From: Pseudomonas fulva
Lineage (GTDB): Bacteria > Pseudomonadota > Gammaproteobacteria > Pseudomonadales > Pseudomonadaceae
Direction: 5' to 3'
Length of the DNA stretch: 64,000 nt
Assembly (NCBI RefSeq): GCF_023517795.1
Contig: NZ_CP082928.1
Coordinates: 4,464,001 to 4,528,000 of the forward strand
Positions within the stretch are counted from its first letter, which is position 1; each line of letters opens with the position of its first letter. Shown one piece after another: positions 5,723 through 22,499 of this stretch. The position numbers were made by a program, and so were the translations under genes. Under the pieces are notes generated by a model that saw only the letters and a program-made list of their open reading frames with translations, made no database searches and was not told where the DNA came from.

Positions 5723-5738
5723 TCAACTGATGCATATG

Positions 5739-5766
5739 AAAACGGGCCCAGCGGGCCCGTTTTTTT
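5739..5766 (+). terminator. intrinsic terminator after ahpF
   Basis: ACGGGCCC-AGC-GGGCCCGT stem, A tract before and seven T after, beginning 17 nt after the ahpF stop. The A tract makes it potentially bidirectional. Confidence 0.9.
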
Positions 5767-5796
5767 GTGTTCCGCAGAGCTTGGGGGATGGTGACA

Positions 5797-6634
5797 CCGG
5801 ACTGGCAATAAAGCGTTCGTTGCCGATGGCTTGGCACTCTCCATTAACCCGCCGCCTGGTCTGATAGGTTTCGCCCCTTACGGGCGAGTCACTTGATTCG
5901 CTGCGCTTACCCTTCGGGCCAGCCTACGGCTGTTACTTCGCTGCGCTTCGTAGCTCTTGCTTGCCCAAGAGAAAGTAACCAAAGAGAAGGGCACCCCACC
6001 ATCCGGGCTAGGCGCCCCCGCCCTGCTGCGCCGGGGTTCCCTCGCTCCATCACCACTCCAGGGGCACGTCCGGATGCGGCCCACTGACTAAGGGCCATCC
6101 CTGCCTAGGCGGCCCCGGCCATCGCAGCTCTCGCGGCATCCATGCCGCTCAACCCCTTACACAGCGATTCCACTCGGCCTCCTGAAGGGGACTTGGGCGT
6201 CGTCTGTGAGATCGCAGCTCAAGAGCAAAAGCAGACGCTGCCGAACTTGAGTCCGTGGAAATCTTGCAAGCTCGCGCTTCGGTCCCGTCAGGAGGCCGAG
6301 TGGAGGTGTTGCGTAGGGGAGCGAGCCGCATGGATGCGGCGAGAGGCTTAATGGGCCAGGGAAGGCCCATGTAAGCCGGCCCCCGGAGCGGCGCCGGAGC
6401 GAGGAAACGCAGCGAAGCGGAGTAACAGCCGCAGGCTGGCCCGAAGGGTGAGCAAAGCGAATCAAGTTTCGCGCAGCGAAACCCGGATGTCGGGGTGCCC
6501 TTCTTTGCCACACCTTTCTTGGGCAAGCAAGAAAGGTGTGGCGCCCGTAAGGGGGGCAACACAATGGTTCAGTAGACGCGGTAATGGATAGTGCGAAGCC
6601 GGTAGGTGATACGCACACAAACTTGTCAGTCCGG
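5797..6634. repeat. long inverted-repeat element, copy A (non-coding)
   Basis: About 838 nt without a credible gene fill the ahpF to 6696 interval. The ends are inverted (CCGGACTGGCAA at the left, the complement of CCGGACTGACAA at the right), as are successive inner segments, so the whole unit is an imperfect palindrome. A second copy lies at 20716-21393. Copy A also carries an inverted pair of about 60-nt modules (about 5892-5955 and 6402-6468), containing the 28-nt repeat, that copy B lacks. A central core (6193-6281) is flanked by 22-23-bp inverted repeats at 6170-6192 and 6282-6303. No transposase is encoded. It resembles a non-autonomous mobile or REP-derived composite. Confidence 0.8.
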
Positions 6635-6695
6635 CGTCAAGCGTATCCTCCCCGCAAAAATGCGATGCCTTCTTTATGCCTGCTGGCGCCGCGAC

Positions 6696-7091: not shown

Positions 7092-7229
7092 GTTGGCTCC
7101 GGCTCTCAGTACAAGGAAGGCGCCAGTGTGCGGCGCAGCACCGCGCGCTGCAATCGTCGCGTGTGCATTTCCTCGGCGTCGGGAACCTGCGATGCTGCCG
7201 CCACCGTGAACACAGCAACGAGAACAGCC

Positions 7230-8360
7230 ATGAAGATCAGCTCGGATTTCGACAGCGGCAATATCCTCGTGCAGGACGCCAGCGACCCGCACAAGGTGCT
7301 GCTGGCCATGCGCAAGGATCTCAACAGCGATCACTTCCAGTGGTTTCATTTCCATGTCGAGGGTCTGACGCCGGGCGCGCGCCATGACTTCAGCATCACC
7401 AATGCCGGGCAGTCCGCCTACAGCCATGCCTGGACCGGTTACAACGCGGCCGCCTCCTATGATCAGCAGACCTGGTTCCGGGTGCCCAGCCGCTTCGACA
7501 ATGGCGCGCTGAACTTCGGCCTGGAGCCCGAGCATGAGCAGATCTGGTTCGCCTATTTCGAGCCCTACAGCCGTGAGCGCCACGCCGCGCTGATCGAACG
7601 GGCACTGGCATTGCCAGGCGTCGAGCTGCAGGCCAGCGGGCGCAGCATCGAGGGCCGTGACATCGAGCTGCTGCGCGTGCACCGCCATGGCAGCGCGAAC
7701 CGCAAGGTATGGATCATCGCCCAGCAACATCCGGGCGAGCACATGGCCGAGTGGTTTATGGAAGGCATCATCGAGCGCCTGGGTGACTCGACCGATAGCG
7801 AGCTGGATTCGCTATTGCAACAGGCCGATCTGTACCTGGTGCCGAACATGAACCCCGATGGCGCCTTCCGTGGCCACCTGCGCACCAACGCGGCAGGGCA
7901 GGACCTCAATCGTGCCTGGCAGTCGGCGAGCGCCGAGCGCAGCCCGGAAGTGCTGTTCGTCCAGCAGGCGATGCGCGGGATCGGCGTGGATCTGTTTCTG
8001 GATATCCACGGCGACGAGGAAATTCCCCACGTGTTCACCGCCGGTTGCGAGGGCAACCCTGGCTTCACGCCGCGCCTGGAGGCCCTGGAAAGCGAGTTTC
8101 GCCAGCGCCTGGTGGATAGCGGCGCCGAGTTTCAGACCCGCTTCGGTTACCCGCGCAGCGCCCCTGGCAAAGCCAACCTGGCGCTGGCCTGCAATTCGGT
8201 GGGGCAGGAATTCGACTGCCTGTCGTTCACCCTGGAAATGCCCTTCAAGGACCATGACGATACGCCGAACCCGCGGACCGGCTGGAATGGCCAGCGCTCG
8301 ATGAAACTGGCCGCCGACATGCTTGGCGTGGTCGGTCAGATGGTCGACCGCCTGCGCTGA
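7230..8360 (+). CDS. M14-family zinc carboxypeptidase (cytosolic carboxypeptidase-like)
   Basis: 376 residues from ATG 7230; the longer frame upstream lacks a ribosome site. An N-terminal beta domain (about 1-115, starting with the FDSGNI motif of the Nna1/CCP subgroup) precedes the catalytic domain. Zinc ligands are His167 and Glu170 (QQHPGEHM) and His260 (DIHGDEE). The substrate-carboxylate region shows NPDG at 208-211 and TN...DLNR at 219-228, and the catalytic glutamate is Glu336 (FTLEMPF). No signal peptide, so cytoplasmic. Bacterial members trim C-terminal residues from peptides or proteins; the target is unknown. It abuts the convergent hypothetical gene with no gap. Confidence 0.92.
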   Translation: MKISSDFDSGNILVQDASDPHKVLLAMRKDLNSDHFQWFHFHVEGLTPGARHDFSITNAGQSAYSHAWTGYNAAASYDQQTWFRVPSRFDNGALNFGLEPEHEQIWFAYFEPYSRERHAALIERALALPGVELQASGRSIEGRDIELLRVHRHGSANRKVWIIAQQHPGEHMAEWFMEGIIERLGDSTDSELDSLLQQADLYLVPNMNPDGAFRGHLRTNAAGQDLNRAWQSASAERSPEVLFVQQAMRGIGVDLFLDIHGDEEIPHVFTAGCEGNPGFTPRLEALESEFRQRLVDSGAEFQTRFGYPRSAPGKANLALACNSVGQEFDCLSFTLEMPFKDHDDTPNPRTGWNGQRSMKLAADMLGVVGQMVDRLR

Positions 8361-8891
8361 TCAGGCATGCTCGTGCAGGCTGCCGGGTTCATCCTGGGTG
8401 GCCTGCAACTCCTGAAGAATCTTCATCTTCTCGGCGATTTCCCTCTCGGCGGCGGCGCGCTGTTCAGGCAGCATGTTCTCCAGGTCTTCCTCGGTGATGC
8501 CGACCTCCTTGAGGATCTTGTCGCGCATCTTCTCCGCCGGGGTCATGGCCATGTAGGCCATGAACTCATCCCTGGCGCTCGGCTTGGACGGGGCCTTCTG
8601 CTCGTCGCTGGCCGACAGCGTGCCGGTATCCTGCAGGGCGTCTTCGCTCGCCCGATGGGGCGAGCTGTTGAGGGTCACGAGCATCCGTGCGAAGGCTTCG
8701 TCATAGGCCTGCTGGTGGGCATTCGCCTCATCGCTCCTGAACGTCGGCGCGACCCGCCCGTTTTCCCGTGGCTTGCCGGGCTCGGCGAGCAGTGCTGCAT
8801 CGCTGCTCTTCTTGAAATCCAGTTCCTCGGCGCGGGTGCGCTGCAGGGACGTGGCCATCGTGTAGGGATTGAGCGAACCGATGATGCTCAT
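8361..8891 (-). CDS. hypothetical protein, helical and charged
   Basis: 176 residues from ATG 8891, fixed by AAGGAGG 8 nt upstream; an in-frame TTG 48 nt earlier has no such site. The N-terminal half is low in order (rich in Ser, Ala, Lys). The C-terminal half carries a segment DEFMAYMAMTPAEKMRD followed by a long charged helix (about 130-165). No signal peptide or membrane segment. Proteins with this C-terminal pattern recur in pseudomonads without known function, to my recollection. It is convergent and adjacent to the carboxypeptidase gene. Confidence 0.75.
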   Translation of the reverse strand: MSIIGSLNPYTMATSLQRTRAEELDFKKSSDAALLAEPGKPRENGRVAPTFRSDEANAHQQAYDEAFARMLVTLNSSPHRASEDALQDTGTLSASDEQKAPSKPSARDEFMAYMAMTPAEKMRDKILKEVGITEEDLENMLPEQRAAAEREIAEKMKILQELQATQDEPGSLHEHA

Positions 8892-9045
8892 GGCGGGCCT
8901 CCTTGTCGTGAGCTTCTGGCTCAGCAAGGCCCGTGCCACTGCATCTCAATAAAGTAAGTCGCTGATATTCAAGTATATCTTTCATGAGGCTGACGCTTGG
9001 CGGGCAGCGCGTTGCCACCGGCGGCAATGCGCTGCCGGTGGTCTT

Positions 9046-11424
9046 TCAGCCAGGTGGATCGAAAAGACCACGCTGGGCAAGGGCAGGCAGGCGTTCGCTC
9101 GAGGTCGGCTGCTGTACAGGTGGTGCCGGCCGCCGAGCCATGGGCGGCAGCACTGGCGTTTGCGGCACGCGACTGCGCTGCACGTGCCACCAGCCAGGCA
9201 GCAGGGCACGTACTTCGGGCAGGGTGAAGCGGTCGTCCATCAGGTGTACCACACCGTTGTCCTGCGGCGTGCGGATCACCCGCCCGGCGGCCTGCACGAC
9301 CTTCTGCAGGCCGGGATACAGGTAGGTGTAGTCGTAGCTGCTGCCGAACATCTCGGCCATGCGCAGCTTGATCTGCTCGTTGATCGGGTTGATCTGCGGC
9401 AGCCCCAGGGTGGCGATGAACGCGCCGATCAGCCGATCCCCCGGCAGGTCGATGCCTTCGCCGAACACCCCGCCGAGTACCGCGAAGCCGATTCCCTGGC
9501 CGCCGGGTCTGAAGCGCTCGAGAAATTGCTGACGCTCGGCCTCGTCCATCTGCCGGGCCTGCACCCAGCGGGTGAGCTGCGGGTGCTCGCGGTCGAACAG
9601 CTCCAGCACCTGCTGCAGGTAGGCGTAACTGCTGAAGAACGCCAGGTAGTTGCCCGGGCGCTTGGCGAACTGCCGGGCCATCAGCGCGACGATGGGCGCC
9701 AGGGAGCGCTCGCGGTGCTGGTAGCGGGTCGATAGGTTGCTCACCGCCTGCACCTCGAGCTGCGCGGCCTGGAAGGGCGACTCGACATCCACCCAGGGCG
9801 TTGCCTCGGGCAGGCCGAGCAGGTCGGCGTAGTAGCGGGCGGGGCTCAGGGTGGCGGAAAACAGCGTGGTGCTGTGGCTGTCCTCGAAACGCGGTGCCAG
9901 AAAGGGCGCCGGCACCACGTTGCGCAGGCACAGCACCGAGTGGCTACGGCCACGGCCATCCGCCTGGCGGCTGATATCGAACAGCGAGTGGGGGCCGAAG
10001 GCCTCGGCCAGGCGGCAAAAGGCCATGGCGTCGAGGTAGAACTGCAGCAACTCGCCATCGTTGCCGGTGGGCTGGTCGGTCAGGTGATCGGTTAGGGCAC
10101 TGACCGCTTTTTGCAACGACAGGAGCAGCAGATCCGGCGGCTGCGGGTAGGTCTGGTAGTCCTTGCTCTGCTCCTTGTGCAGCTGCTTCCAGTGCCGGCT
10201 GATGCGCGACAGCACCGCATTCAGGCCCTTGGGCGCGTTGCTGCGCATGGCCTCGAAGCGCGCCTGGTCGAGTTCGGCGCTGTACATGCGCCGGGCGCGT
10301 TCGATCAGGTTGTGGGCCTCGTCGACCAGCAGCGTCACCCGCCATTCGTTGATCAGGGTCAGGCTGTAGAGCAGGGCGCTGAGGTCGAAGTAATAGTTGT
10401 AATCGCACACCACCACGTCGGCCCAGCGGGTCAGTTCCTGGCTCAGGTAGTAGGGGCAGACTTGGTGCTGCAGGGCGATCTCGCGCACCGCGGCCTGGTC
10501 CAGCCAGACGCGCTCGACCGCGGCCTGGCGCGCAGCCGGCAGGCGGTCGTAGAAGCCGCGGGCCAGCGGGCAGGACTCGCCATGGCAGGCCTTGTCCGGG
10601 TGTTCGCAGGCCTTGTCCCGCGCCACGTGTTCGAGCACGCGCAGGGGCAGTGATTCGCCGCGCAGAATATCCAGGGCATGTAGCGCCAGTTGGCGGCCCG
10701 GGGTCTTGGCGGTCAGGAAGAACAGGCGATCGAGCTGCTTTTCCGGGAACGCCTTGAGCTGCGGAAACAGCGTGCCCAGGGTCTTGCCGATGCCGGTGGT
10801 GGCCTGGGCCATCAGGCAATGGCCATCGCGTGCTGCGCGGTAAACGGCCTCGGCCAGTTGCCGCTGGCCATGGCGAAAGCCGGCATGGGGAAAGCGCAGT
10901 TCGGCCAGCGCGGCATCGCGGCTCAGGCGGTGCGCCTGCTCCCGCTCGGCCCAGGTGATGAAGCGCTGGCACAGGGTCTCGAAGAACGCCTGCAGCTCGG
11001 CGGCCGTGCGGCTTTCGCGAAACAGGCTTTCCTTCTGGGTGAGCACGTTGAAGTACACCACGGCCAGGTCGATCCGCGCCAGGCCGCGGCTCTGGCAGAG
11101 CAGCCAGCCATACACCCGCGCCTGGGCCCAGTGCAACTGGCGGTGGTTTTCCGGAATGCGGCTGACGTCGCCGCGATGGGTCTTGATCTCCTCGAGCAGG
11201 TTGCCCTGCGGGTCGAAGCCGTCGGCGCGGCCACGCACCTGCAGCGAGGCGTATTCCCCAGCCAGCGGGACCTCGGATTCATAACCGTCGCCGCGCCGGG
11301 CGACCACCGTGGCATGCCCGGCCATGCCCTCCTGGGCGGTGGGCGAGGGCGTGAAACGCAGGTCGAGATCGCCACACTTGGCGGTGAACTCGCACAGGGC
11401 GCGCACCGCCACGCGGTAACTCAT
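9046..11424 (-). CDS. XPD/DinG-like Fe-S helicase with N-terminal PD-(D/E)XK domain
   Basis: 792 residues. Residues about 1-165 hold a Cas4/RecB-like nuclease fold with Asp68 (RGRADGF) and the E79-I-K81 motif. The helicase part follows: a modified Walker A QATTGIGKT ending Lys214-Thr215, four cysteines suited to a 4Fe-4S cluster (273, 280, 285, 323), and DEAH at 368-371, with the second RecA domain to the C-terminus. XPD-family enzymes unwind 5' to 3' and act in repair. The ATG overlaps the fan1 stop as ATGA, so the two are translationally coupled. Start MSYRV is preferred over the GTG 12 nt upstream for this reason. Domain calls are by motif; DNA substrate is inferred. Confidence 0.92.
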   Translation of the reverse strand: MSYRVAVRALCEFTAKCGDLDLRFTPSPTAQEGMAGHATVVARRGDGYESEVPLAGEYASLQVRGRADGFDPQGNLLEEIKTHRGDVSRIPENHRQLHWAQARVYGWLLCQSRGLARIDLAVVYFNVLTQKESLFRESRTAAELQAFFETLCQRFITWAEREQAHRLSRDAALAELRFPHAGFRHGQRQLAEAVYRAARDGHCLMAQATTGIGKTLGTLFPQLKAFPEKQLDRLFFLTAKTPGRQLALHALDILRGESLPLRVLEHVARDKACEHPDKACHGESCPLARGFYDRLPAARQAAVERVWLDQAAVREIALQHQVCPYYLSQELTRWADVVVCDYNYYFDLSALLYSLTLINEWRVTLLVDEAHNLIERARRMYSAELDQARFEAMRSNAPKGLNAVLSRISRHWKQLHKEQSKDYQTYPQPPDLLLLSLQKAVSALTDHLTDQPTGNDGELLQFYLDAMAFCRLAEAFGPHSLFDISRQADGRGRSHSVLCLRNVVPAPFLAPRFEDSHSTTLFSATLSPARYYADLLGLPEATPWVDVESPFQAAQLEVQAVSNLSTRYQHRERSLAPIVALMARQFAKRPGNYLAFFSSYAYLQQVLELFDREHPQLTRWVQARQMDEAERQQFLERFRPGGQGIGFAVLGGVFGEGIDLPGDRLIGAFIATLGLPQINPINEQIKLRMAEMFGSSYDYTYLYPGLQKVVQAAGRVIRTPQDNGVVHLMDDRFTLPEVRALLPGWWHVQRSRVPQTPVLPPMARRPAPPVQQPTSSERLPALAQRGLFDPPG

Positions 11425-13061
11425 GCTGGCGCCCACTGCACGTAGCAGACGTCTACCGGCATGCCGTGCTCGGCGCAGAACGCCAGCCAGCGGCGCTGGT
11501 TGTCCTGCAGGCGATCGCCGGGGCCTTTCACTTCGATCATCCGGTAGCGCTTTTCCTCGGGCCAGAACTGGATCAGGTCCGGCATGCCCGAGCGGTTCGC
11601 CTGGACATCGCCCAACAGGCGGCGAAACCAGGCTTGCAGGTGAGCCGCCGGCAGGCAGTCCAGGGCCTGTTCGAGCAGGGTTTCGCTGAGTACTCCCCAG
11701 TGCACGAACGGCGACTGGATGCCGAACTTGTCACGGTAGGTCTGGCGAATGCTGTCGCGGTAGCGATGGTCGTCCAGCTGCGCCAGGTACTCGGCGAACA
11801 GCGCACGCCGGCGCGGGTAGAATTCCGCGCTCAGCAGATCCGCGGGGCCATGCTGGAACGGATGAAAGAACGCGCCGGGAATCGCGGCGAAGATCGCTGG
11901 CCAGCAGAGCAGGCCGAACAGGCTGCAGATCAGCGTGTTCTCGACGTAATGCACCGGCGCCTCGCTGCAGTGCAGATGCTGTTGCACCAGCCGCTCGACT
12001 GCCAGCATGGGCGTTTTCGGCAGGTGCAGATCCAGGCGCGCGGGGGCCTGCACCTTGCCGCGTTTCTGCGCTGGCAGGCCCAGATGACGGGCCAGGCGCA
12101 CCAGTGCCCGTTCGGCCAGCTGTAGTTCGCCATCGCTGACCGGTTCGGCCACGGCCTGGCTGGCCAGTTCGAAGGCCTCGCGGTGCTGCAGGGTGCGTTC
12201 CAGCACGCGGATGCAGCGCTGCCGCGCCGCGCCGTAGCCACTGCTGGCGTACACCTGCAGCGCCAGGTCGAAGTCGGCGCCGCGCTCCAGGTGCTGGCCG
12301 ATGCGAAACAGCAGCTTGGCGCGACGTTCGGCGATATAGGGGTTGTCGTAGCGACGGGCGTCGATGCGGGCGAGCAGCTCGTCGCTGACCTCGCCGGCTT
12401 CGAAGGCTTCGCGGCAGCGCTGCAGGTGCAGGTAGTCGTCGACGTCCTCGCGACAGCGCAGGGCCCGTGAGTCCGCCGGAAAGTCGACCCGCTCGTAACG
12501 GAAGATACCCAGGTCGGCGAGCACGAATTCCGACCATTCCTGGCGCAGGTTGCCAAAGAACATCAGGCGCAGGCGCTCGCTCAGGTCATCGATGGTCAGG
12601 CTGTAGAGCACGTCGTCGAGGGCCGGGCACCAGGCGGCGAACGACTGGCTGGCCGCGAACTGGGCGGCCAGCTGCTGGGCCAGGTCATCCTTGCGGGCGC
12701 GTCGGTCGCTGAGCTGCGCGGTGAAACTGGCGACGATTTCGTCCTTGCGCAGCAGGGCCAGCAGCACATCGAGTGGCAGCGGTGCATCGTCGAGCACCCA
12801 GCCATTGGCGATCAGCGCCGCGGCGGCCTGCCGGCAGCAACCGATTTCCTCGTAATTGAGCTTGCTGGCGCGAAAGTGCACGCCCTTGCGCATGATCATC
12901 CGTACCAGCAGGGCCTGGGCCCCCCAGTCCAGCGCATCGAAGGCCTGCAGGAAGGCCTGTTCGCGGGCATCGAGCAGGTCGGCGTGGCGATCGCCGATCC
13001 AGGCCAGGGCCTTGCGAAAGTTGTGCAGGTAGTAGAAACGTGGATCAATGCTTGAAGACAT
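11421..13061 (-). CDS. fan1: FAN1-type VRR-NUC structure-specific nuclease
   Basis: 546 residues, close to the P. aeruginosa FAN1 homologue. The C-terminal VRR-NUC domain carries the catalytic set MPD (Asp495), then EVK (Glu510, Lys512) in the context IEVKGPGDRLQDNQ, a hallmark of FAN1. Upstream lie helical regions matching the SAP-like/TPR part. FAN1 cuts 5' flaps and unhooks interstrand DNA crosslinks. Start ATG 13061 (MSSSIDPRFYYLHNF) is chosen because the frame upstream is antisense to the kinase gene. It leads a two-gene operon with the Fe-S helicase, so the pair plausibly handles crosslinks or flaps together. Confidence 0.93.
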   Translation of the reverse strand: MSSSIDPRFYYLHNFRKALAWIGDRHADLLDAREQAFLQAFDALDWGAQALLVRMIMRKGVHFRASKLNYEEIGCCRQAAAALIANGWVLDDAPLPLDVLLALLRKDEIVASFTAQLSDRRARKDDLAQQLAAQFAASQSFAAWCPALDDVLYSLTIDDLSERLRLMFFGNLRQEWSEFVLADLGIFRYERVDFPADSRALRCREDVDDYLHLQRCREAFEAGEVSDELLARIDARRYDNPYIAERRAKLLFRIGQHLERGADFDLALQVYASSGYGAARQRCIRVLERTLQHREAFELASQAVAEPVSDGELQLAERALVRLARHLGLPAQKRGKVQAPARLDLHLPKTPMLAVERLVQQHLHCSEAPVHYVENTLICSLFGLLCWPAIFAAIPGAFFHPFQHGPADLLSAEFYPRRRALFAEYLAQLDDHRYRDSIRQTYRDKFGIQSPFVHWGVLSETLLEQALDCLPAAHLQAWFRRLLGDVQANRSGMPDLIQFWPEEKRYRMIEVKGPGDRLQDNQRRWLAFCAEHGMPVDVCYVQWAPA

Positions 13062-13211
13062 GGGGCAGGCAGGGTACTGTTTTTTTATACAGATATCAGG
13101 CCGCCCGTCATCTGGCAATCGCCACGGGATGGGCGGATGGTACAACTCACTGTCACTCGGCATCGGTCGCGGACTACACTGCACCTCCATCGCCGCCTGG
13201 AACGGGCCACC

Positions 13212-14372
13212 ATGAACAGCCAGTTTGCGCCTCTCTCTCCAGGCACCCTGACCGAGCGACACTACGAGATGCTGGTTCAGGCGGTCGTCGACTACGCCAT
13301 CTTCATGCTCGACCCGGCGGGGGTCGTGGTGTCCTGGAACGCCGGGGCGGCGCGCATCAAGGGCTACGCCGCCGGCGAGGTGATCGGTCAGCATCTGTCC
13401 ATTTTCTATACCGACGAAGACCGCCGCGCCGGCAAGCCCGGCTACCTGCTCGACCGGGCGCTGCGTGAGGGCCGTGCCCAGGACGAAGGCTGGCGGGTGC
13501 GCAAGGATGGCACGCGCTTCTGGGCCCTGGTGGTGATCGATGCGATCCGCAACGAGCAGGGTGAACTCATCGGCCTGGCCAAGATCACCCGCGACATCAC
13601 CGACCGCCGCGAAGCCGAAGGCCGCTATGACGCCTTGCGTGCGCAGCTGTTCCAGGCTCAGAAGCTGGAGGCCCTCGGGCAACTGAGCGGCGGCATGGCC
13701 CACGACTTCAACAACCTGCTGACCATCATCCTCAGCGCCGCCAAGCTGGCCAGCCGTACCGACGATCCACAGCGCCTGGCCAGCCTGCTGGACAACATCC
13801 AGACCGCTGGCGAGCGCGGCGCGCAGATGACCCGCAACCTGCTGACCTTCGCCCGTTGCGAGCCCAAGCCCAGTCGCCTGGTCGACCTCAACCAGTTGCT
13901 TGATGCAGCCTCGACCTTCATTAGCCAGGCGCTGCCCAAGAGCATGACCCTGCAGATGCAGATCGATGACGGATTGCACCCCGTGCAACTGGATCCCAGC
14001 GAACTGGACATGGCGCTGCTCAACCTGATTCTCAACGCCCGCGATGCCATGGGCGGCGTCGGCACGGTGCAGTTGCAGGCGGGCAATCGCCAGTTGGCAG
14101 GGGAGGTCGATGGGCTGCACGGTGCGTTCGTGGCGATCGCCGTGGCCGACCAGGGCTGCGGCATCGATCCGGCGATCCGTCCGCGCCTGTTCGAGCCTTT
14201 CTTCACCACCAAGGACACCGGCAAGGGAACCGGCCTGGGCCTTTGCCAGGTCTATGGGTTCGCGCGTCAGGCGGGCGGAGCCGTGCAGGTCGAAAGCGTC
14301 AACGGCCACGGAACGACCATGATTCTGTATTTGCCGGCGTCCTCCGGTCAGTCGGCAGATGCGCAGGCATGA
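13212..14372 (+). CDS. cytosolic PAS-domain sensor histidine kinase
   Basis: 386 residues from ATG 13212. A PAS domain spans about 17-130 (ends GLAKITRDITDRREAE). The H-box is His164 in GMAHDFNNLL, followed by the N-box LNLILNARDAMG, D-box VADQGCGID and G-box GKGTGLGL. There is no membrane segment, so it senses an intracellular cue. It lies 108 nt upstream of the KaiC-like gene and in the same direction as a lone receiver, an arrangement suggesting one signalling unit. The ligand or cofactor of the PAS domain is not visible. Confidence 0.93.
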   Translation: MNSQFAPLSPGTLTERHYEMLVQAVVDYAIFMLDPAGVVVSWNAGAARIKGYAAGEVIGQHLSIFYTDEDRRAGKPGYLLDRALREGRAQDEGWRVRKDGTRFWALVVIDAIRNEQGELIGLAKITRDITDRREAEGRYDALRAQLFQAQKLEALGQLSGGMAHDFNNLLTIILSAAKLASRTDDPQRLASLLDNIQTAGERGAQMTRNLLTFARCEPKPSRLVDLNQLLDAASTFISQALPKSMTLQMQIDDGLHPVQLDPSELDMALLNLILNARDAMGGVGTVQLQAGNRQLAGEVDGLHGAFVAIAVADQGCGIDPAIRPRLFEPFFTTKDTGKGTGLGLCQVYGFARQAGGAVQVESVNGHGTTMILYLPASSGQSADAQA

Positions 14373-14480
14373 ACATGGTAGTATCGCCAATCACTTTTTC
14401 AGCCAGCGCTGCGGGGTTTGGGTGACCCATGTGTCAACCCAGGCCATATTTGCGTAATTTCGACTGAGGCAAGCCAGATC

Positions 14481-15923
14481 TTGGAACAGCTACAACGCCT
14501 TCAAAGTGGGATCGAGGGACTTGACGCTCTATTGAAGGGCGGTCTGGTGGCCGGTGCATCCTATATCGTTCAGGGGCGCCCCGGCTCTGGCAAGACGATT
14601 CTCGCCAACCAGGTCGCGTTCAACCATGTGCGCGACGGGGGCCGTGTTCTGGTGGCCACCCTGTTGGCCGAGTCCCATGAAAGGCTCTTTCAATTCCTTT
14701 CCACGATGAGCTTCTTCGACCCGGGCAAGGTCGGCGCGGAGATCCAGTTCGTCAGCGCCTTCGACACCCTGGAAAACGAGGGGCTCGACGAAGTCGTCAA
14801 GCTGCTGCGCCGCGAGATCAGTCGCCAGAAGGCCACGTTGCTGATCGTCGACGGCCTGCTCAACGCCCGCTCCAAGGCGGAGAACCAGATCGACACCAAG
14901 AAATTCATCTCCGAGCTGCAGGGCCATGCGGCCTTCGCCGGTTGCACGGTGCTGTTTCTGACCAGCTCGCGGCTGGACGACGGCAGCCCCGAGCACACCA
15001 TGGTCGATGGCGTGATCGAGCTGGGCGAGGAACTGTTCGGTGCCCGCTCGGTGCGCCGCATTCACCTGCGCAAGACCCGTGGCAGCGGCGCCCTGTCCGG
15101 CCTGCACGAGTGCGAGATCACCGACGACGGGTTGGTGATCCACCCGCGCCTGGAAAGCCTGTACAGCCAGCCGAGCCAACCCGACAGCGAAACCCTGGGG
15201 CAGATTTCCAGTGGCATCCCGAGTCTTGATGAGCTGATCGGCGGTGGGCTGGCGGCATCCTCGGTCACCCTGATCATGGGGCCCTCGGGCGTCGGCAAGA
15301 CCACCCTGGGGCTCAACTTCCTGGCGCAATCCACCGTCGAGGCGCCGGGCCTGCACTTTGGTTTCTATGAAACGCCGCAACGCCTGCGCCTGAAGGCCGA
15401 GGCACTGGGCATCGACTTCGGTGCCCTGGAGGCCAGCGGCGCGCTGCATATCCTGTGGCAGCCGACTACCGAGGGGCTGCTCGATGGTCTGGGCGCCAAG
15501 GTCATCGATGCGGTACGCGCGAGGGGGATCAAGCGTCTGCATATCGATAGCCTCGGCGGCATGGCCCGCCTGGCGACAGGCAACGCACGGTTGATCGAGT
15601 TCTTCAGCGCGCTGATGAACCAGCTGCGGGCCATGGGCGTCACGGTATTCGCCACCTGGGAAATGCGCGACCTGTTCACCGCCGAGATCAATGCCCCGGC
15701 CCCGGAGCTGTCGAGCATCGTCGACAACCTGATTCTCATGCGTTTCGTGGAGAAAGACGCTGAACTAAAGCGGCTTCTGTCCATCCTTAAGATGAGGGAC
15801 AGGTGTTACGATCCCACGCTTCTGGAAGTGGTCATCAGTGATCATGGTATTGAACTCAGCAAGGCCTTTAGACATGCGGCGGGTGCGCTGTCGGGCAATG
15901 CCGTCCCTGCGCAGGACGCCTGA
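14481..15923 (+). CDS. double-domain KaiC-like ATPase
   Basis: 480 residues from TTG 14481, preceded by GAGG 11 nt upstream; an alternative TTG at 14418 adds 21 residues and no good ATG exists. Two RecA/KaiC domains are present: domain 1 with Walker A GRPGSGKT (32-39) and Glu-Ser-His-Glu in place of the paired catalytic glutamates, domain 2 with GPSGVGKT (267-274) and FYETPQRL. In cyanobacteria KaiC is the clock ATPase; in non-photosynthetic bacteria relatives act in stress or signalling. No kaiA or kaiB is nearby. Flanked by a histidine kinase and a receiver. Start uncertain, family certain. Confidence 0.9.
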   Translation: MEQLQRLQSGIEGLDALLKGGLVAGASYIVQGRPGSGKTILANQVAFNHVRDGGRVLVATLLAESHERLFQFLSTMSFFDPGKVGAEIQFVSAFDTLENEGLDEVVKLLRREISRQKATLLIVDGLLNARSKAENQIDTKKFISELQGHAAFAGCTVLFLTSSRLDDGSPEHTMVDGVIELGEELFGARSVRRIHLRKTRGSGALSGLHECEITDDGLVIHPRLESLYSQPSQPDSETLGQISSGIPSLDELIGGGLAASSVTLIMGPSGVGKTTLGLNFLAQSTVEAPGLHFGFYETPQRLRLKAEALGIDFGALEASGALHILWQPTTEGLLDGLGAKVIDAVRARGIKRLHIDSLGGMARLATGNARLIEFFSALMNQLRAMGVTVFATWEMRDLFTAEINAPAPELSSIVDNLILMRFVEKDAELKRLLSILKMRDRCYDPTLLEVVISDHGIELSKAFRHAAGALSGNAVPAQDA

Positions 15924-15953
15924 GCCATGTGTGCCTGACCGAGCCGATAAACT

Positions 15954-16316
15954 ATGACAACCATCTTGATAGTCGACGACGAATACCTGATTGCGGATAT
16001 TCTCGGCTATGCCATGGAAGACGAGGGCTACATGGTGGTGAAGGCCAGCAATGGCCGTCGCGGCCTCGAGGTGCTCGACCGTGAGCGCCCCGAGCTGGTG
16101 ATCACGGATTTCATGATGCCGGTCATGGACGGTCTCGAGTTCGCCCGGGCCATCCGCGCCCGGCCAGGGTCGGCGGATCTGCCGATCATCCTCATGAGTG
16201 GCGCCCAGGCTAGCATCGGGCGCGCCAGCCCCGAATTGTTCGCCGCGGTGTTCGACAAACCCTTCGATATCAATCAGGTCATCGCCAAGGTCAAGGAGCT
16301 GATCGGCCCGAGCTGA
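15954..16316 (+). CDS. stand-alone response regulator receiver
   Basis: 120 residues, a CheY-like domain with no output domain. Acidic pocket Asp8-Asp9 (VDDE), phospho-acceptor Asp52 (ITDFMMP), Ser82 (MSGA) at the Thr/Ser position and Lys102 (FDKPF). It starts 30 nt after the KaiC-like gene, so co-transcription is likely. It may receive phosphate from the upstream PAS kinase and act by protein contact, possibly with the KaiC-like protein; that partnership is inference. Confidence 0.93.
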   Translation: MTTILIVDDEYLIADILGYAMEDEGYMVVKASNGRRGLEVLDRERPELVITDFMMPVMDGLEFARAIRARPGSADLPIILMSGAQASIGRASPELFAAVFDKPFDINQVIAKVKELIGPS

Positions 16317-16420
16317 TCGCACCCATTGTGTTGGTGACGGCACGGCAACCCTTGCGCTCTCTGTATCACAAGCGGAACGCTTCATGGCCCGATGGTCGAA
16401 CGCTGCGCAAGCCCGGGCGC

Positions 16421-16609
16421 ATGTCCATGGGCATCCTGATCTGCAGCGACGAATCCCACCAGCTCCTGCCGCTGCTCACCCACCACAAGGCCGCGGCGGC
16501 GGATAGCGGTCAGCTGGCCGCGGCGCCTGCGCTGAAAAGCATCGCCAAACCATTCTCCCTGCGCGAGTTGGGCGAGACCCTCGACGAGCTGCTGCCAGGG
16601 CCATCCTGA
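16421..16609 (+). CDS. short ORF resembling a degenerate receiver domain
   Basis: 62 residues from ATG 16421 (in frame up to 16328). The start MGILICSDESHQLL looks like a receiver beta-1 strand, and the end AKPFSLRELGETLDELL matches the lysine-proline turn and last helix of receivers, but the middle with the phospho-acceptor aspartate is missing. It follows the true receiver by about 100 nt, so it may be a decayed duplicate or a shrunken partner. Ribosome site is weak; it may not be expressed. Confidence 0.35.
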   Translation: MSMGILICSDESHQLLPLLTHHKAAAADSGQLAAAPALKSIAKPFSLRELGETLDELLPGPS

Positions 16610-17006
16610 CCGCTCGCAACGCCCTGCCACGGCCTTTCGGCAACTTTTTTCACGCAAAGCATGCGGATGCGGAATCAAAGCGTTGCTCCGTAGTCCTAAA
16701 CCCTGACAACGAATAGCGGCACCCCAGAGCGCCGCCTCCAACACCCTCGAAACACCGGGTTGGATGTCGAACCGTTGCAGCACCAGACGCCGTTTTTCGC
16801 GCTGCCCTCTACCCGTGTAGGCAGCTGCAGGACGGGTGGTTGCCAAGGGAAGGGATGCTGCAGCCTGCACTGCCTCGACAAGCATTGGCGGGCGTGCAGA
16901 TGCCTGTGGTTCGGCTTAGAACTGCCAGCGTCCATCAATCGAGTGTCGCCGTACCGTTACGGCGATTGTGGGGGAGATATTAACCATTGAACGGTAATCA
17001 CAGCCT
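16610..17006. other. intergenic region upstream of the nitroreductase gene
   Basis: About 400 nt with no credible gene. It probably holds the promoter of the plus-strand polysaccharide trio. The only clear structure is the small hairpin at 16947-16964. ORFs read across it on either strand have no ribosome site. Confidence 0.5.
16947..16964 (+). promoter_or_regulatory. hairpin in the leader of the nitroreductase-wzx transcript
   Basis: CGCCGTA-CCGT-TACGGCG, a perfect 7-bp stem 43 nt before the start codon. It could be an operator or an RNA stem in the leader; no T tract follows. Confidence 0.35.
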
Positions 17007-18116
17007 ATGAAAATGTTGAAGGAATCCCTCAAGAAGGTCTTGCCGCGGGACAGTATCGATAACCTCAAGACCTTGCAGAAGAGACTCGCCATGGGCTGGA
17101 TCCGGGCGTTGTCGCGCTCGGCCATGTTGCGCCGTTTCCATTATTCGTTCTTCTCCTCGGCCTTCGACCGGGAAGCCTATGCAGTGGTCGTCGGCCACCT
17201 GCAGCATGAGCAGAACCTGTCCGGCGCCGAGCCGGTGAACTACTTCCTGCGCCGCGCCGTGCACCGCATCGAGAAAGGCCTGATCATGCAGCCGCGGCGT
17301 CAGGTGTTCGCCCTCGACTACATCAACGATACGGTCGACAGCTACATCGCCTCGCTCAATGGCAACGTCGATCGCGACGAGGTCAGCTGGGCCCACGACG
17401 TGCTCGCCGAATACTTTGCCGTCACCGGCGACCACCCGGTGCTCAACCGCGCCCGCGAGAAGTTCGCCCGTTTCGAGCGCCCCAGCGGCTCGCCCGCAAC
17501 CCTGCGCCACCCGGATGCCGAGCGTGTGCCGTTCGCCGCCGACGTGAGCACGCCGAGCGTCGATTTCACCGCCATGCGTCAACTGGCGATGAAGCGTCGC
17601 TCAGTGCGCTGGTACCAGCAGGGCCGTCCGGTGCCGCGGGAGGTGATCGACAAGGCCGTGGAAGTCGCCGTGCAGTCGCCGAGCGCCTGTAACCGCCAGC
17701 CTTATCGCTTCGTGGTGTTCGATGACCCCGCCTCGGTGGCCCAGGCGTCGCGCCTGCCCATGGGCGTGGCCGGCTTCGATCATAATTTCCCGGCCATCGT
17801 CGCCGTGGTCGGTCGCCTGCGCGCCTATCCCCATGTGCGCGACCGCCACGTGATCTACATCGACGGCGCCCTGGCGGCAATGTCCTTCATGTTCGCGCTG
17901 GAGACCCAGGGCGTGTCGTCCTGCTCGATCAACTGGCCGGACATTCCCGAGCGTGAAGAGGCCGCGGCCAAGCTGCTCAAGCTCGACCCGGACGAGCGCA
18001 TCGTGATGTTCATTTCCCTGGGCTACGCCGCCGATACCGGCCTGGTGCCGTACTCGCAGAAGCTCTCGCTGGAGGAAGCCCGCAGCTATATGCGCCTGGA
18101 GTCGCCCGCTCGATGA
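17007..18116 (+). CDS. nitroreductase-fold protein of the polysaccharide locus
   Basis: 369 residues. An N-terminal region of about 190 residues with no motif I know precedes a C-terminal FMN nitroreductase-type domain that begins KRRSVRWYQQGRPVP and contains SPSACNRQPYRF and a late VMFISLGYA. The family uses FMN and NAD(P)H, although members linked to polysaccharide loci have unclear roles. The first ATG is used; a second lies 6 nt on and neither has a strong ribosome site. Its TGA overlaps the wzx ATG, so its product is made together with the flippase. A sugar or lipid-linked redox role is only a guess. Confidence 0.85.
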   Translation: MKMLKESLKKVLPRDSIDNLKTLQKRLAMGWIRALSRSAMLRRFHYSFFSSAFDREAYAVVVGHLQHEQNLSGAEPVNYFLRRAVHRIEKGLIMQPRRQVFALDYINDTVDSYIASLNGNVDRDEVSWAHDVLAEYFAVTGDHPVLNRAREKFARFERPSGSPATLRHPDAERVPFAADVSTPSVDFTAMRQLAMKRRSVRWYQQGRPVPREVIDKAVEVAVQSPSACNRQPYRFVVFDDPASVAQASRLPMGVAGFDHNFPAIVAVVGRLRAYPHVRDRHVIYIDGALAAMSFMFALETQGVSSCSINWPDIPEREEAAAKLLKLDPDERIVMFISLGYAADTGLVPYSQKLSLEEARSYMRLESPAR

Positions 18117-19429
18117 GTGCTTCGCGTGTCCAGGAGGGCATGAAGTACCTCCTCAACTCCGGCTGGATGCTGGCCGAGAAATTCCTCATGCTGGCCATCG
18201 GCCTGGCCACCACGGTGGTGCTGGCGCGCTACCTGGGGCCCGAGGATTTCGGTTACCTGAACTACGCGCTGGCGCTGCTGGGTCTGCTCAGCATCGTTGT
18301 GCACCTGGGGCTCACCGGCCTGGTGGTCAAGGAGCTGCGCAGCAACCCGGACAACGAGGACCAGATCCTCTCCACGGTATTCGTGATCAAGGTGGGCTGC
18401 TCGGTGATCGCCTTCGCGATCATGATGAGCACCTACCTGTTCGGCAACGACCAGAACTTCCTGGTGCTGCTGTTCACCGCCCTGGCGCTGTTCTTCACCC
18501 CGTTCGAAATGCTCATCGACTGGTTCCAGGCGCGGGTGCAGGCCAAGTACGCGGCGGTGGCCGGCTTCGTCGGCCAGCTGGGCGGCAACGGCCTGAAGAT
18601 GATCCTGGCCATCGCCGGCGCGGGCCTGGTGTACATCGCCCTGGCCCACGTGGTGGTGGTGATGGTCACTTCGGCGATCCTGGTCTGCTACGCGGTGATG
18701 CTCAAGCGCGATTTCCGCTTCGACTTTTCCTGGCCACTGGGCAAGACGCTGCTCAAGAAGAGCTTCCTCATCTTCCTGGGCTCGCTGTCGGCGGTGATCT
18801 ACCTCAAGGTCGACCAGATCATGCTGCAGTACATGCTCGGCGAGTACGCCGTGGGGGTGTATTCGGCGGCGTCGCGGCTGTCCGAGGCCTGGTACCTGAT
18901 CCCGACCATTCTCATGGCGTCGGTCTTCCCGAAGATGATCGATCTGCACAAGACCGACACCGCCGGCTACAACCGCTTCATGCAGGTGGCGCTGGACGTG
19001 CTGTTCTTCATGGCCTTCGCCCTGGCCGTGGTGGTGTTCTTCCTTTCCGACTGGATCGTGCACCTGCTCTACGGCGCCCAGTACGTCGACGCCGGGCCGG
19101 TGCTGGCGATCCATATCTTCGCCGCGACCTTCGTGTTCATGCGCGCGCTGTTCAGCAAGTGGATCATCATCGAGGAAGCCTTCATCTTTTCCCTGGTCAC
19201 CCAGGGCCTCGGCGCGCTGAGCAACATCGTGCTCAATTACTACCTCATCCAGAGCCACGGCGTGGTCGGCTCGGCCTGGGCGACGCTGATTTCCTATTCC
19301 ATCGCCGGTTACGTGAGCTTGCTGCTGTCACGCAAGACACGGCCGCTGTTCATCATGATGACCAAGAGTATTTGCCTGCACGTGTTCATTAGCGTGCCCC
19401 AGTTGATTCGTGAATTCAGGAGAAGGTGA
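18113..19429 (+). CDS. wzx: Wzx-type oligosaccharide flippase
   Basis: 438 residues with about 12-14 membrane helices, a member of the MOP/PST exporter family. The N-terminus shows the usual ARYLGPEDFGYLNYALALL segment. It would flip undecaprenyl-diphosphate-linked repeat units to the periplasm for the Wzy polymerase encoded at 25469-26752. It overlaps the nitroreductase gene by ATGA and is followed by the pyruvyl transferase gene after 1 nt. The E. coli colanic acid locus likewise has a flippase next to the pyruvyl transferase gene wcaK. Confidence 0.93.
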   Translation: MSASRVQEGMKYLLNSGWMLAEKFLMLAIGLATTVVLARYLGPEDFGYLNYALALLGLLSIVVHLGLTGLVVKELRSNPDNEDQILSTVFVIKVGCSVIAFAIMMSTYLFGNDQNFLVLLFTALALFFTPFEMLIDWFQARVQAKYAAVAGFVGQLGGNGLKMILAIAGAGLVYIALAHVVVVMVTSAILVCYAVMLKRDFRFDFSWPLGKTLLKKSFLIFLGSLSAVIYLKVDQIMLQYMLGEYAVGVYSAASRLSEAWYLIPTILMASVFPKMIDLHKTDTAGYNRFMQVALDVLFFMAFALAVVVFFLSDWIVHLLYGAQYVDAGPVLAIHIFAATFVFMRALFSKWIIIEEAFIFSLVTQGLGALSNIVLNYYLIQSHGVVGSAWATLISYSIAGYVSLLLSRKTRPLFIMMTKSICLHVFISVPQLIREFRRR

Positions 19430-19430
19430 T

Positions 19431-20624
19431 ATGTACGTCGAGATCCGCAAGGCCGGTTTCGTCAACAAGGGGGCGGCACTGATGCTGCACGCCGCCCTGC
19501 AGCAAGTGCGCAAGAACCTGCCAGCTGCCAAGGTAGTGATGGAGCCGGGCCGGGCCAAGAGCCCTTATCCTTATTTCAACCGTGCGTCCCTGGGGCTGTA
19601 CCAGAAGGCCTGGTTGTGGCGCAAAGGCATCCCGTTCGGTGACCTGGCGGCGGTGGTGCCGGCCGGTATCCGCGAGCAGTACGGCATCGTGCTCGACAAG
19701 GAAATCAACGTGGTGCTGGACGCCGCCGGCTTCGCCTACAGCGACCAGTGGGGCCCGGACCTGTCCGAGGAGCTGGCCCGTTCCAGCAAGCGCTGGAAGA
19801 AGCAGGGCTCCAAGGTGATTCTGCTGCCCCAGGCGTTCGGGCCGTTCCGCGACCCGCGTAGCCGCGAGGCGGTGAAGGCGTTCGTCGACAACTGCGACCT
19901 GATCTTCGCCCGCGAGCAGATCTCCTACGACTACCTGACCGAGATCGTCGGCGAGCGCGACAACATCAAGATCGCCCCGGACTTCACCAACCTGATCACC
20001 GGCCCGGTGCCGGACTACTTCGACCCTGAGATCCACCAGATCTGCCTGGTGCCCAACTGCCGTATGCTCGACAAGACCGACGACAGCGTCGCCAAGGGCT
20101 ATGCGCCGTTCCTCGAGCGCGCAGCCAAGGCACTGGTAGAGCGTGGCGCCAAGCCGTTCCTGCTGATCCATGAAGGCGAGGGCGATGCGCGCCTGGCCGA
20201 GCAGGTTTCCAAAGCGGTAGGCGGCCTGCCGATCCTGCGCGAGACCGATCCGCTGGCCATCAAGGGCATCCTCGGCGCCTGCCGCGGCACCCTGGGCAGC
20301 CGCTTCCACGGCCTGGTCAGTGCGCTGTCACAGGGCGTGCCGTCGCTGGCCACCGGCTGGAGCCACAAGTACCAGATGCTGTTCGCCGATTACGGGTTCT
20401 CCGAGGGCGTGCTGGACATCAACCTGAGCGACGAGGAGCTCAACCGCGCCCTCGACAACCTTACCGATCCGGTGCAGATGCAGGCGCTGTCCGCGCGCCT
20501 CAATGCTCACTCGGCTGAGCTGAAGACCCGCACCCAGGCCATGTGGAACGAAGTGTTCGCGCTGATCGAGCAGGGCCGCAACGTACGCAGCGAGAAGCCG
20601 GTTGCCGTGGCAACTGGGCGTTAA
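19431..20624 (+). CDS. polysaccharide pyruvyl transferase family protein
   Basis: 397 residues, start set by AGGAG 6 nt upstream of ATG 19431. A PF04230-type protein: N-terminal NKGAALML segment, central VILLPQAFGPFRD and C-terminal GSRFHGLVSALSQGVPSLATGWSHKY, the histidine-bearing motif of the family. Such enzymes transfer pyruvate from phosphoenolpyruvate to form ketals on sugars, as WcaK is thought to do in colanic acid. It is last in the plus-strand trio and is followed by a terminator. Acceptor sugar not visible. Confidence 0.9.
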   Translation: MYVEIRKAGFVNKGAALMLHAALQQVRKNLPAAKVVMEPGRAKSPYPYFNRASLGLYQKAWLWRKGIPFGDLAAVVPAGIREQYGIVLDKEINVVLDAAGFAYSDQWGPDLSEELARSSKRWKKQGSKVILLPQAFGPFRDPRSREAVKAFVDNCDLIFAREQISYDYLTEIVGERDNIKIAPDFTNLITGPVPDYFDPEIHQICLVPNCRMLDKTDDSVAKGYAPFLERAAKALVERGAKPFLLIHEGEGDARLAEQVSKAVGGLPILRETDPLAIKGILGACRGTLGSRFHGLVSALSQGVPSLATGWSHKYQMLFADYGFSEGVLDINLSDEELNRALDNLTDPVQMQALSARLNAHSAELKTRTQAMWNEVFALIEQGRNVRSEKPVAVATGR

Positions 20625-20632
20625 ACGGACGA

Positions 20633-20664
20633 GGGCGATGCCGCATCGGCGGCATCGCCTTTTC
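20633..20664 (+). terminator. intrinsic terminator after the pyruvyl transferase gene
   Basis: GGCGATGCCGC / GCGGCATCGCC stem with a 4-nt loop and TTTT, starting 9 nt after the stop codon. Confidence 0.85.
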
Positions 20665-20715
20665 CAGCGTGCCAGACCAAGGTTCTTCGCTCTTTAGGGG
20701 AGCGCCTGGTTGATG

Positions 20716-21393
20716 CCGGACTGGCAAGTTTGTGTGCGTTGCCGATGGCTTGGCACTCTCCATTAGCACGCCGCCTGGCCGGGTGGGTTTCGCCCCTTAC
20801 GGGCGACTCACTTTCTGTGCTTGTGCAAAGAAAGTAAGCAAAGAAACACACCCCTACATCCGGCCCCGGCTGCGCCGGGGTTCCCTCGCTCCATCACCAC
20901 TCCAGGGGCACGCTGCGAAGGGCCATCCCTGGCCCATCGCAGCTCTCGCGACATCCATGTCGCTCAACCCCTTACATGGCGATTCCACTCGGCCTCCTGA
21001 AGGGGACCATGTCGCGAGCTTGCGACATCTGCGCAAGATCAAAGTCGGTAGCGTTTGGCTTTTGCTCTTGAAGCGCGATCTCACAGACGACGCCCAAGTC
21101 CCCTTCAGGAGGCCGAGTGGAGGTGTTGCGTAGGGGAGCGAGCCGCATGGATGCGGCGAGAGGCTTAATGGGCCAGGGATGGCCCATGTAAGCCGGCCCC
21201 CGGAGCGGCACCGGAGCGAGGGAAGTTTCGCGCAGCGAAACCCGGATGTCGGGGTGCCCTTCTTTGGCACACCTTTCTTGGGCAAGCAAGAAAGGTGTGG
21301 CGCCCGTAAGGGGCGCAACACAATGGTTCAGTAGACGCGGTAATGGATAGTGCCAAGCCAGTAAGTGATACGCACACAGACTTGCCAGCCCGG
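20716..21393. repeat. long inverted-repeat element, copy B (non-coding)
   Basis: About 678 nt between two convergent operons, homologous to copy A at 5797-6634. Ends CCGGACTGGCAAG and the complement of CCGGGCTGGCAAG are inverted. The central 90-nt core (21008-21097) is bounded by a perfect 23-bp inverted repeat (20985-21007 and 21098-21120). The arms align with copy A in the same direction while the core aligns only in reverse complement. The 28-nt repeat modules of copy A are absent, as if cleanly missing from both arms. No transposase or credible ORF inside. Confidence 0.8.
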
Positions 21394-21422
21394 TACCAAG
21401 GCTGATTTTCCTGAGATACCAC

Positions 21423-21457
21423 AAAAAAACGCCCGGACGATCACTCGTCCGGGCGTT
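21423..21457 (-). terminator. intrinsic terminator of the minus-strand polysaccharide operon
   Basis: On the minus strand, AACGCCCGGACGA / TCGTCCGGGCGTT stem with a 4-nt loop, followed by seven T. It lies 20 nt after the last gene of the operon. Confidence 0.9.
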
Positions 21458-21476
21458 CTAGTACCTGCAGTCGACC

Positions 21477-22271
21477 TCAGGACTTGCGGTCGTAGGCCCC
21501 TTGCTCGCTGACCGCGACCTTGCTGTCGCGACCGTTACGCACGATGTAGTAGAAGAACCGCGGAATGCCGATCACGTAGCGGGCGAACAGCCGGCGCGGC
21601 TCCATGAGCAGGCGATACGCCCATTCCATGCCGACCTTGCGCACCAGTTCGGGCGCCCGGTTGAAGCGCTGAGCGGCGAAATCCAGGATCGCGCCACCGC
21701 AGATCATCAGGGCAGGGCGGCTGAGGTTGCGCTGCAGGGTGACGGCCACCTCTTCCTGGCGTGGCATGCCCATGCCCATCACGATCAGCGGAATCTTGCC
21801 CGGCTGCAGGTGCTCAAGAACGAATTCCAGGTAGCGCTCCACGGGCTGGAAGCCGTCGATGGCATGGTAGTCACGACCGCGGAACAGGGCATTGGCGCCT
21901 TCGTCGGTCCACGGCTCGCAGGTACCCATGGCGAACAGCTGATACTGGTTGCTGCGCTCGCCCTGCAGGGCGTGCTCGATCAGCGCCGGAATGAAATCGG
22001 TACCGTTGAGGTTGGCGCCGGGCGCCAGGCCGTTCAGCTGGCAGGCCAGCTTGATGCCGATGCCATCGCGCAGCAGATGGTTGATCTGCAGGAAGTGGCG
22101 GCGTGCGCGCTTGTCCTGCTGGATCAGGTTGTAGCCATGCTGGTTGAGAAAACCAACGATGGTCGGTTTCTTCGGACTGCTCAAGTCTTCGAGCAACGGC
22201 GTCACATCATGTTCTTCCAGCAACTTCAGTTTGTGAATAACGGGGTCGTACAGGAGTTTGGAAGTTTTCAC
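21477..22271 (-). CDS. WecG/TagA/CpsF family glycosyltransferase (second copy)
   Basis: 264 residues from GTG 22271, preceded by GAGG; the frame upstream runs through the intergenic spacer. The GT26-family signature is clear: NGTDFIPALIEHAL, GMGMPRQEEVAV and RRLFARYVIGIPRFFYYIV near the end. GT26 enzymes add a sugar such as N-acetylmannosamine or a uronic acid to lipid-linked acceptors. It is the last gene of the operon, 228 nt after manC, a wider gap than elsewhere. A paralogue lies at 23927-24745; the two differ strongly in sequence, so they probably add different sugars. Confidence 0.87.
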   Translation of the reverse strand: MKTSKLLYDPVIHKLKLLEEHDVTPLLEDLSSPKKPTIVGFLNQHGYNLIQQDKRARRHFLQINHLLRDGIGIKLACQLNGLAPGANLNGTDFIPALIEHALQGERSNQYQLFAMGTCEPWTDEGANALFRGRDYHAIDGFQPVERYLEFVLEHLQPGKIPLIVMGMGMPRQEEVAVTLQRNLSRPALMICGGAILDFAAQRFNRAPELVRKVGMEWAYRLLMEPRRLFARYVIGIPRFFYYIVRNGRDSKVAVSEQGAYDRKS

Positions 22272-22499
22272 GGGCGAGCCTCGTTGTCGGAAAGTAGGAG
22301 AATTATCCGGAGTGTGTTCACGTGGGCTTCGCGCTTTGCTTGTTCTTGTAGAAAGTCCGTTTGATAGCGAAATGGGTGGCATTCCTTGCCCCATCGGGTG
22401 TGAACTGGCAGAGCCATGGGAGAGGTGGCGAACCACCCGGCGAAGGGGCCCCAGGGGGCCCCGGTGATGGGTGCCGGCGCAGTGAGCGCTGGCCCGGCC

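Follow-up and report, generated by a model that had tools for sequence, protein, structure and literature searches.

The stretch of DNA analysed here (the window) comprises 64,000 nucleotides of the genome of Pseudomonas fulva (contig NZ_CP082928.1, positions 4,464,001–4,528,000; the source genome, G000, is one contig of 5.44 Mb) and carries two long palindromic elements, A and B, which the first-pass annotation had placed at 5797–6634 and 20716–21393 and which are present there. Element B is located between two convergent genes, and A downstream of a reductase gene with matches to Pfam Pyr_redox_2 and Thioredoxin_3, which we take to be AhpF-like; on the other side of A lies an opposing open reading frame (ORF, 6696–7742) of uncertain gene call and without a Pfam match. 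Judged from their sequences, A and B are members of a family of non-autonomous mobile elements, resembling miniature inverted-repeat transposable elements (MITEs), with ends of the ISL3 type. Their interior, about 0.7 kb between two inverted copies of the 14-bp sequence CACCGGACTGGCAA, is often inverted when orthologous loci are aligned by their flanks.

Outside this subterminal motif the ends are conserved over about 35 bp, have the form GGTTCTTCGCA... and lie beside A/T tracts and terminator hairpins; CACCGGACTGGCAA is found just inside them, in inverted orientation. The insertion target is the T-tract of transcription terminators, with target duplications of 8 bp: the 8 bp flanking both ends match at a mean of 5.29 of 8 positions, compared with 2.91 (standard deviation 0.25) in shuffled pairing (59 rows, one locus being included twice; 11 rows match exactly). 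A search for DDE_Tnp_ISL3 gave a match in 15 of 15 genomes; full-length, intact copies are found only in G212 (3 copies) and G392 (6 copies), broken pieces in G088, and weak partial matches in the remaining genomes, the source genome included. The intact ISL3 elements L279 and L280 of G212 and G392 (L denotes a locus, G a genome) have ends similar by eye to those of the A/B family and perfect 8-bp duplications; near the ends of both, CACCGGACTGGCAA is absent. Locus B is common to Pseudomonas straminea, P. argentinensis, P. punonensis and their kin, with four species lacking the element there (L014–L017). At another locus the element is present in G392 and G001, and of six relatives four have a plain intergenic stretch and two other repeats. 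An array of repeated units of about 100 bp (L271, ~354–1501, near 1558k in G000) occupies a place where relatives have an element or a plain intergenic stretch.

Counts of cores, arms and ends refer to loci picked by the exact 21-mer of the inner repeat, together with near relatives; the exact inner repeat occurs in 22 of the 398 genomes of the genus, the places considered are the first ones per genome, and 80 regions were fetched. The 91 rows in the table of ends and arms come from 83 loci and comprise alternative and false pairings too; they lie within length limits of 560–1000 bp set by the authors. Counts by ortholog group omit 16 loci, namely four duplicates carrying a second identifier and 12 considered unreliable, most of which are truncated by the end of a contig. 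As several draft contigs break off within or near elements (L186, L192, L196, L215, L216, L220, L223, and L262), drafts may undercount them. Related species are not independent observations.

In the scored elements the interior measures 0.56–0.98 kb, and its two orientations relative to the ends stand at 20:17 in 37 a/b elements and 3:2 in five c/d elements. Outer and inner arms agree in all 49 rows where both are clear, which speaks for the clear rows only, since in five of the 91 rows the outer arms at the two ends are of one type, and many rows are unclassified. Among 22 ortholog groups, interior orientation is mixed in six of the 15 with at least two interior calls, and end orientation in one of the 12 with at least two end calls. 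Mixed interiors beside stable ends, together with the agreement of the arms, suggest that the interior mostly behaves as a single block between ends that stay fixed, although there are exceptions. The first-pass annotation had proposed inversion of a core of roughly 90 nucleotides between flanking repeats of 22–23 bp. Its general idea stands, in that sequence bounded by inverted repeats has been turned over and no enzyme is encoded within the element; the level was misplaced, as the inner repeats are seldom where this happens (3 of 82 elements, see below) and the commoner event involves the whole interior, at or next to the 14-bp subterminal repeats.

In two clear cases, orthologous loci carry nearly identical interiors in opposite orientations. 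The cleanest pair is L241 (G212) and L254 (G073), whose flanks share 97.3% (590 bp) and 99.1% (640 bp) identity and whose interiors, one of them inverted, match at 98.2% (596 bp) and 98.1% (105 bp); the next matches of L241, within its best six by score among the loci compared, are at 89–95%. The interior of B is inverted relative to that of L011 of P. punonensis, with 94.6% identity over 645 bp, and among the matches listed for B the others do not exceed about 88%, except the G392 ortholog, which has the same orientation. Counted by hand on the locus-B flank tree, at least three orientation changes are needed.

Junction mapping in 16 pairs gave 32 junctions, with positions numbered on CACCGGACTGGCAA. 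The intervals of 20 of them overlap positions 4–14, including all seven that are free of conflicts; in L242/L246 both junctions lie at 4–14 and are conflict-free, with an identical stretch of about 10 bp, and in L241/L254 the left junction lies at 6–11 and the right one at 12–23. The place of crossover is in this way only partly shown. The inner repeats have a perfect run longer than or equal to that of the outer ones in 55 of 69 elements (median 17 versus 13). Being mostly longer and also closer together, yet rarely flipped (3 of 82), they speak against a choice by homology length, and it is chiefly the rarity of inner flips despite these runs that favours site-specific inversion over a homology-driven or template-switch one. 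The dyad TTGNCA-N6-TGNCAA around the site was considered as a recombinase site and set aside, its TTGA part belonging to the ISL3 end and being variable.

The cores of A and B align, as first noticed, only when one is reversed (local-alignment score of 104 reversed and 21 direct), with 80% identity over B-core positions 6–90. Internal symmetry does not explain this match, since B scores only 32 and A 20 against their own reverse complements. Five other elements of the source genome hold at least 44 nucleotides of core, at 184851, 517487, 1123355 and 4469797 (the last is A) and, partially, at 4966k; in all five, the core-to-arm orientation is opposite to that in B, which is the exception. Inside the element at the 4966k locus, a self-complementary sequence of about 87 bp (AGTTCGTAGGGTGGATGACG...) is found (L081, ~1149–1235, and L158). 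The wider Pseudomonas sample comprises 91 distinct arm–core–arm elements, 82 of them classifiable and nine not. The core end GGGCGTCGTC adjoins the L-type arm in 79 of the 82 and the R-type arm in three; core orientation thus tracks the arms nearly always, the exceptions being window B, L011 of P. punonensis (= L167) and L222 in genome G313, and the uniform tracking that would have spoken against the first-pass proposal is approached but not reached. Window B and its G392 copy, identical over 256 bp, were counted once. With three flipped cores in 82, the 23-bp inner repeats were dropped as the main inversion site. These repeats are perfect 23-mers in B, as annotated; in A, for which one mismatch had been given, the left copy is exact and its partner has three mismatches in an ungapped alignment of the 23 positions.

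At loci B, 184k and 1123k, the cores of the source genome score nearer the B core, and those of the relatives compared nearer the A core, except in G392 and P. punonensis at locus B. Because the core type at these loci differs between the source genome and its relatives, the B core may have arrived through conversion in reverse instead of having been inverted in place. The flip of the B core would be an event of its own, less frequent and located at the 23-bp inner repeats, and most simply explained by template switching or by reverse conversion from another copy.

The best explanation of the opposite interiors, to which we assign a probability of about one half, is inversion at CACCGGACTGGCAA by a putative site-specific recombinase acting in trans. 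Non-autonomous ISL3-ended elements would insert into terminator T-tracts, leaving 8-bp duplications, and the palindromic interior would be inverted as a unit by crossover at the inverted 14-bp sites just inside the ends of about 35 bp. The ISL3 ends would remain fixed to the flanking DNA while the interior turns, and the recombinase would be encoded elsewhere. A more ambitious form of this proposal is tentative and less likely than not: the recombinase might continually turn over, at CACCGGACTGGCAA, the interiors of numerous ISL3-type elements scattered over the genome, with orientation near equilibrium between species, as a genome-wide system whose substrates are mobile intergenic palindromes.

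Several observations, in addition to the rows with the same arm type at both ends, weigh against a trans-acting recombinase at this site. Twelve of the 32 junctions miss positions 4–14: eleven are adjacent to the site, between −6 and +26, and the last lies at 38–43. Up to 10 conflicting positions occur at junctions. The left and right intervals of L241/L254 are disjoint unless one base of L241 mutated later, and those of window B/L011 lie at 17–26 (left) and 2–6 (right). CACCGGACTGGCAA is kept in divergent elements too and may be conserved for transposition. Nine of the 15 ortholog groups have no interior change, and in one group (L228 versus L241/L254) the ISL3 ends are inverted as well. For some interiors, another locus is no more distant than the inverted ortholog: L246 matches L249 at 93.9% and L232 at 93.1%, L255 matches L245 at 94.4% and L247 at 89.4%, and L254 has its top score with L197, at 92.1% but across more sequence. 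The 114 ortholog pairs in which both flanks match divide, by a crude score, into 43 direct, 43 inverted and 28 mosaic ones, some of the inverted pairs resting on half an element; the mosaic pairs indicate that parts of the interior also move separately. Orientation differences are seen between species only, no strain having both among the genome sequences compared. Finally, no recombinase was identified by Pfam among the four neighbouring ORFs of A and B (three with metabolic Pfam families and one without a match), the wider surroundings being unscanned.

With only 20 of 32 junction intervals overlapping positions 4–14 of the site and 28 of 114 pairs mosaic, template switching and inverted exchange are serious rivals, although we consider each unlikely. 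Template switching in replication, or RecA-independent exchange between imperfect arms, would flip DNA between short identical inverted stretches with no dedicated enzyme. In template-switch spacer inversion, as described in PMC8604942, the spacer between inverted repeats turns and the arms become identical; the perfect inner repeats of B and the 46-bp perfect run at the outer ends of the core-flipped L222 are what such homogenisation would leave, and the mosaic pairs agree with it as well. The criterion for the process is perfect arms of more than about 9 bp and a short spacer; here the median runs are 13 (outer) and 17 bp (inner), with spacers of about 0.7 kb and 90 nucleotides, respectively. 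The reported inversions, according to the same text, concern a few bases (2–5 substituted), in contrast to about 90 nucleotides for the core or 0.7 kb for the interior here, and the inner repeats, which lie closer together and are mostly longer, flip less often.

Ectopic exchange, of about the same low probability, would swap interiors or their parts between copies, in either orientation since they are near-palindromic, and would amount to replacement rather than inversion in place. It would account for the varying core type at one locus between species, for interiors as close to another locus as to their ortholog, for the mosaic pairs and for mixed end types such as ad, bd, and cb. Against it, L241/L254 and window B/L011 are mutually closest among the loci listed, save for the G392 ortholog of B and the match of L254 with L197, which is longer but less identical; moreover, arm-mediated exchange is expected to split outer from inner arms, which is unseen in the 49 clear rows. 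Independent insertions at the same terminator in opposite orientations are very improbable: the targeting of terminator T-tracts and the inverted ends in the group of L228 are in their favour, but the ends keep one orientation in 11 of 12 groups while interiors differ in six of 15. For the two clear pairs, whose interiors are orthologous by identity, this explanation was dropped on the pair identities and the stable end orientation.

An exact CACCGGACTGGCAA site is found in 32 of the 398 genomes of the genus, several of which have a single match, maybe by chance. Of 20 regions then examined, 14 have a pair of sites, 519–937 bp apart and with mostly similar ends, and the arms are related to those of B in all six compared. 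No larger, autonomous element combining the 14-bp sites with a recombinase was encountered in these 20 regions, whose genes were not systematically scanned. L291–L305 (G123 and G008) share the 14-bp site, mostly similar ISL3-like ends and related arms, and have different cores; G123 has 21 exact sites and no exact inner repeat. Short derivatives keeping both subterminal sites comprise L156, L185 and L170 (about 200 bp) and L153 (320 bp); L156, L185 and L153 probably lost their interior, because their orthologs measure 572–875 bp. A shorter, single-arm repeat, matched over 155–175 bp, occurs in G000 at 3162k, 1229k, 2443k, 932k and 3688k (L083, L085, L087, L088 and L089, respectively, at ~1000–1190); these repeats end in or near CCACTCGGCCTCCTGAAGGGG, their second arm is unmatched, and in L083 and L087 a CGATTGG-GTCGTC-like sequence follows.

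The annotated absence of a transposase or invertase gene from both copies agrees with the Pfam search, in which the three long ORFs within A and B matched no family; neither has a transposase of its own. An Rfam scan of 5700–21500 gave nothing at gathering thresholds, and B had no blastn match in the phage collection. The single other record, with short matches only, is a Caballeronia plasmid (NZ_CP084285.1, 89.6% identical to B at 20801–20846), which hints at a possibly wider distribution of small hairpin modules from the arms. Between 20600 and 21500, a consensus scan found no sigma-70-like sites (0.2 expected in shuffles); terminator-like sites number four (0.9 expected), and most of one of these lies beyond B. 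The features of both elements and the genes beside B are collected in the table.

Table. Features of elements A and B and genes flanking B (window coordinates)
Feature	Position	Strand	Remarks
A left ISL3-like end	5760..5794	+	About 35 bp, type not called
A left subterminal site	5795..5808	+	CACCGGACTGGCAA
A left (L-type) arm	5809..6169	+	
A left inner repeat	6170..6192	+	Exact match
A core	6193..6280	+	Common orientation relative to arms
A right inner repeat	6281..6303	-	3 mismatches of 23
A right (R-type) arm	6304..6622	+	
A right subterminal site	6623..6636	-	2 mismatches
A right ISL3-like end	6637..6671	-	a-type
Polysaccharide pyruvyl transferase family gene, left of B	19410..20624	+	Points towards B; Pfam PF04230, E 8.8e-31
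B left ISL3-like end	20681..20713	+	d-type, GGTTCTTCGC...GGTTGA; from sequence, end families and target duplications; end order dc in 7/7 called ortholog-group members
B left subterminal site	20714..20727	+	TGCCGGACTGGCAA; consensus CACCGGACTGGCAA
B interior, left (L-type) arm	20728..20984	+	
B left inner 23-bp repeat	20985..21007	+	Exact match
B core	21008..21097	-	Reversed relative to arms, unlike 79/82 classifiable elements
B right inner 23-bp repeat	21098..21120	-	Exact match
B interior, right (R-type) arm	21121..21381	+	
B right subterminal site	21382..21395	-	
B right ISL3-like end	21396..21430	-	Tip decayed; window copy scored 'd?', not called; c-type by orthologs (L159 scored c)
WecG/TagA/CpsF glycosyltransferase family gene, right of B	21477..22436	-	Points towards B; Pfam PF03808, E 1.7e-31

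The A/B family combines known kinds, namely non-autonomous elements of the ISL3 type and invertible DNA. With ISL3-family insertion sequences and their non-autonomous derivatives it shares similar ends (as in the intact copies of G212 and G392) and the 8-bp target duplications; it differs from them in the lack of a transposase and in the long palindromic interior of variable orientation, and CACCGGACTGGCAA is not found near the ends of L279 and L280. Invertible DNA is usually recognised beside its own recombinase and promoter, and the fim switch is one example for comparison. A further one, according to PMC4747536, is Mpi of Bacteroides fragilis, a global invertase with 13 invertible regions; there too, short inverted sites occur at many dispersed loci, and one trans-acting enzyme would likewise explain the A/B family. 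The latter differs in that B has no promoter-like site in the consensus scan and in that the unit lies inside intergenic mobile elements. The intergenic repeats R0, R1, R2 and R6 of P. fluorescens are described in passages of PMC2718517 as non-coding, with inverted repeats around a core and a bias to gaps between convergent genes, the repeats in R0 and R2 also occurring in insertion sequences. The A/B family is like them in being non-coding, in the inverted repeats flanking a core, in the bias to gaps between convergent genes and in having repeats in common with insertion sequences; the P. fluorescens repeats measure 80–177 bp, and turning of their interior is not described in those passages. 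A literature search of titles and abstract openings found no paper on the turning of the interiors of ISL3-type elements.

In this family the invertible unit is a mobile, non-coding palindrome present at many loci, and its two orientations relative to the ends are about equally frequent (near 1:1). Should a recombinase be the cause, the family would represent a multi-target inversion system not recognised so far; otherwise it would offer a natural test bed for the turnover of palindromes and the exchange of their parts. In both cases, orientation at orthologous loci has become a scorable, testable trait.
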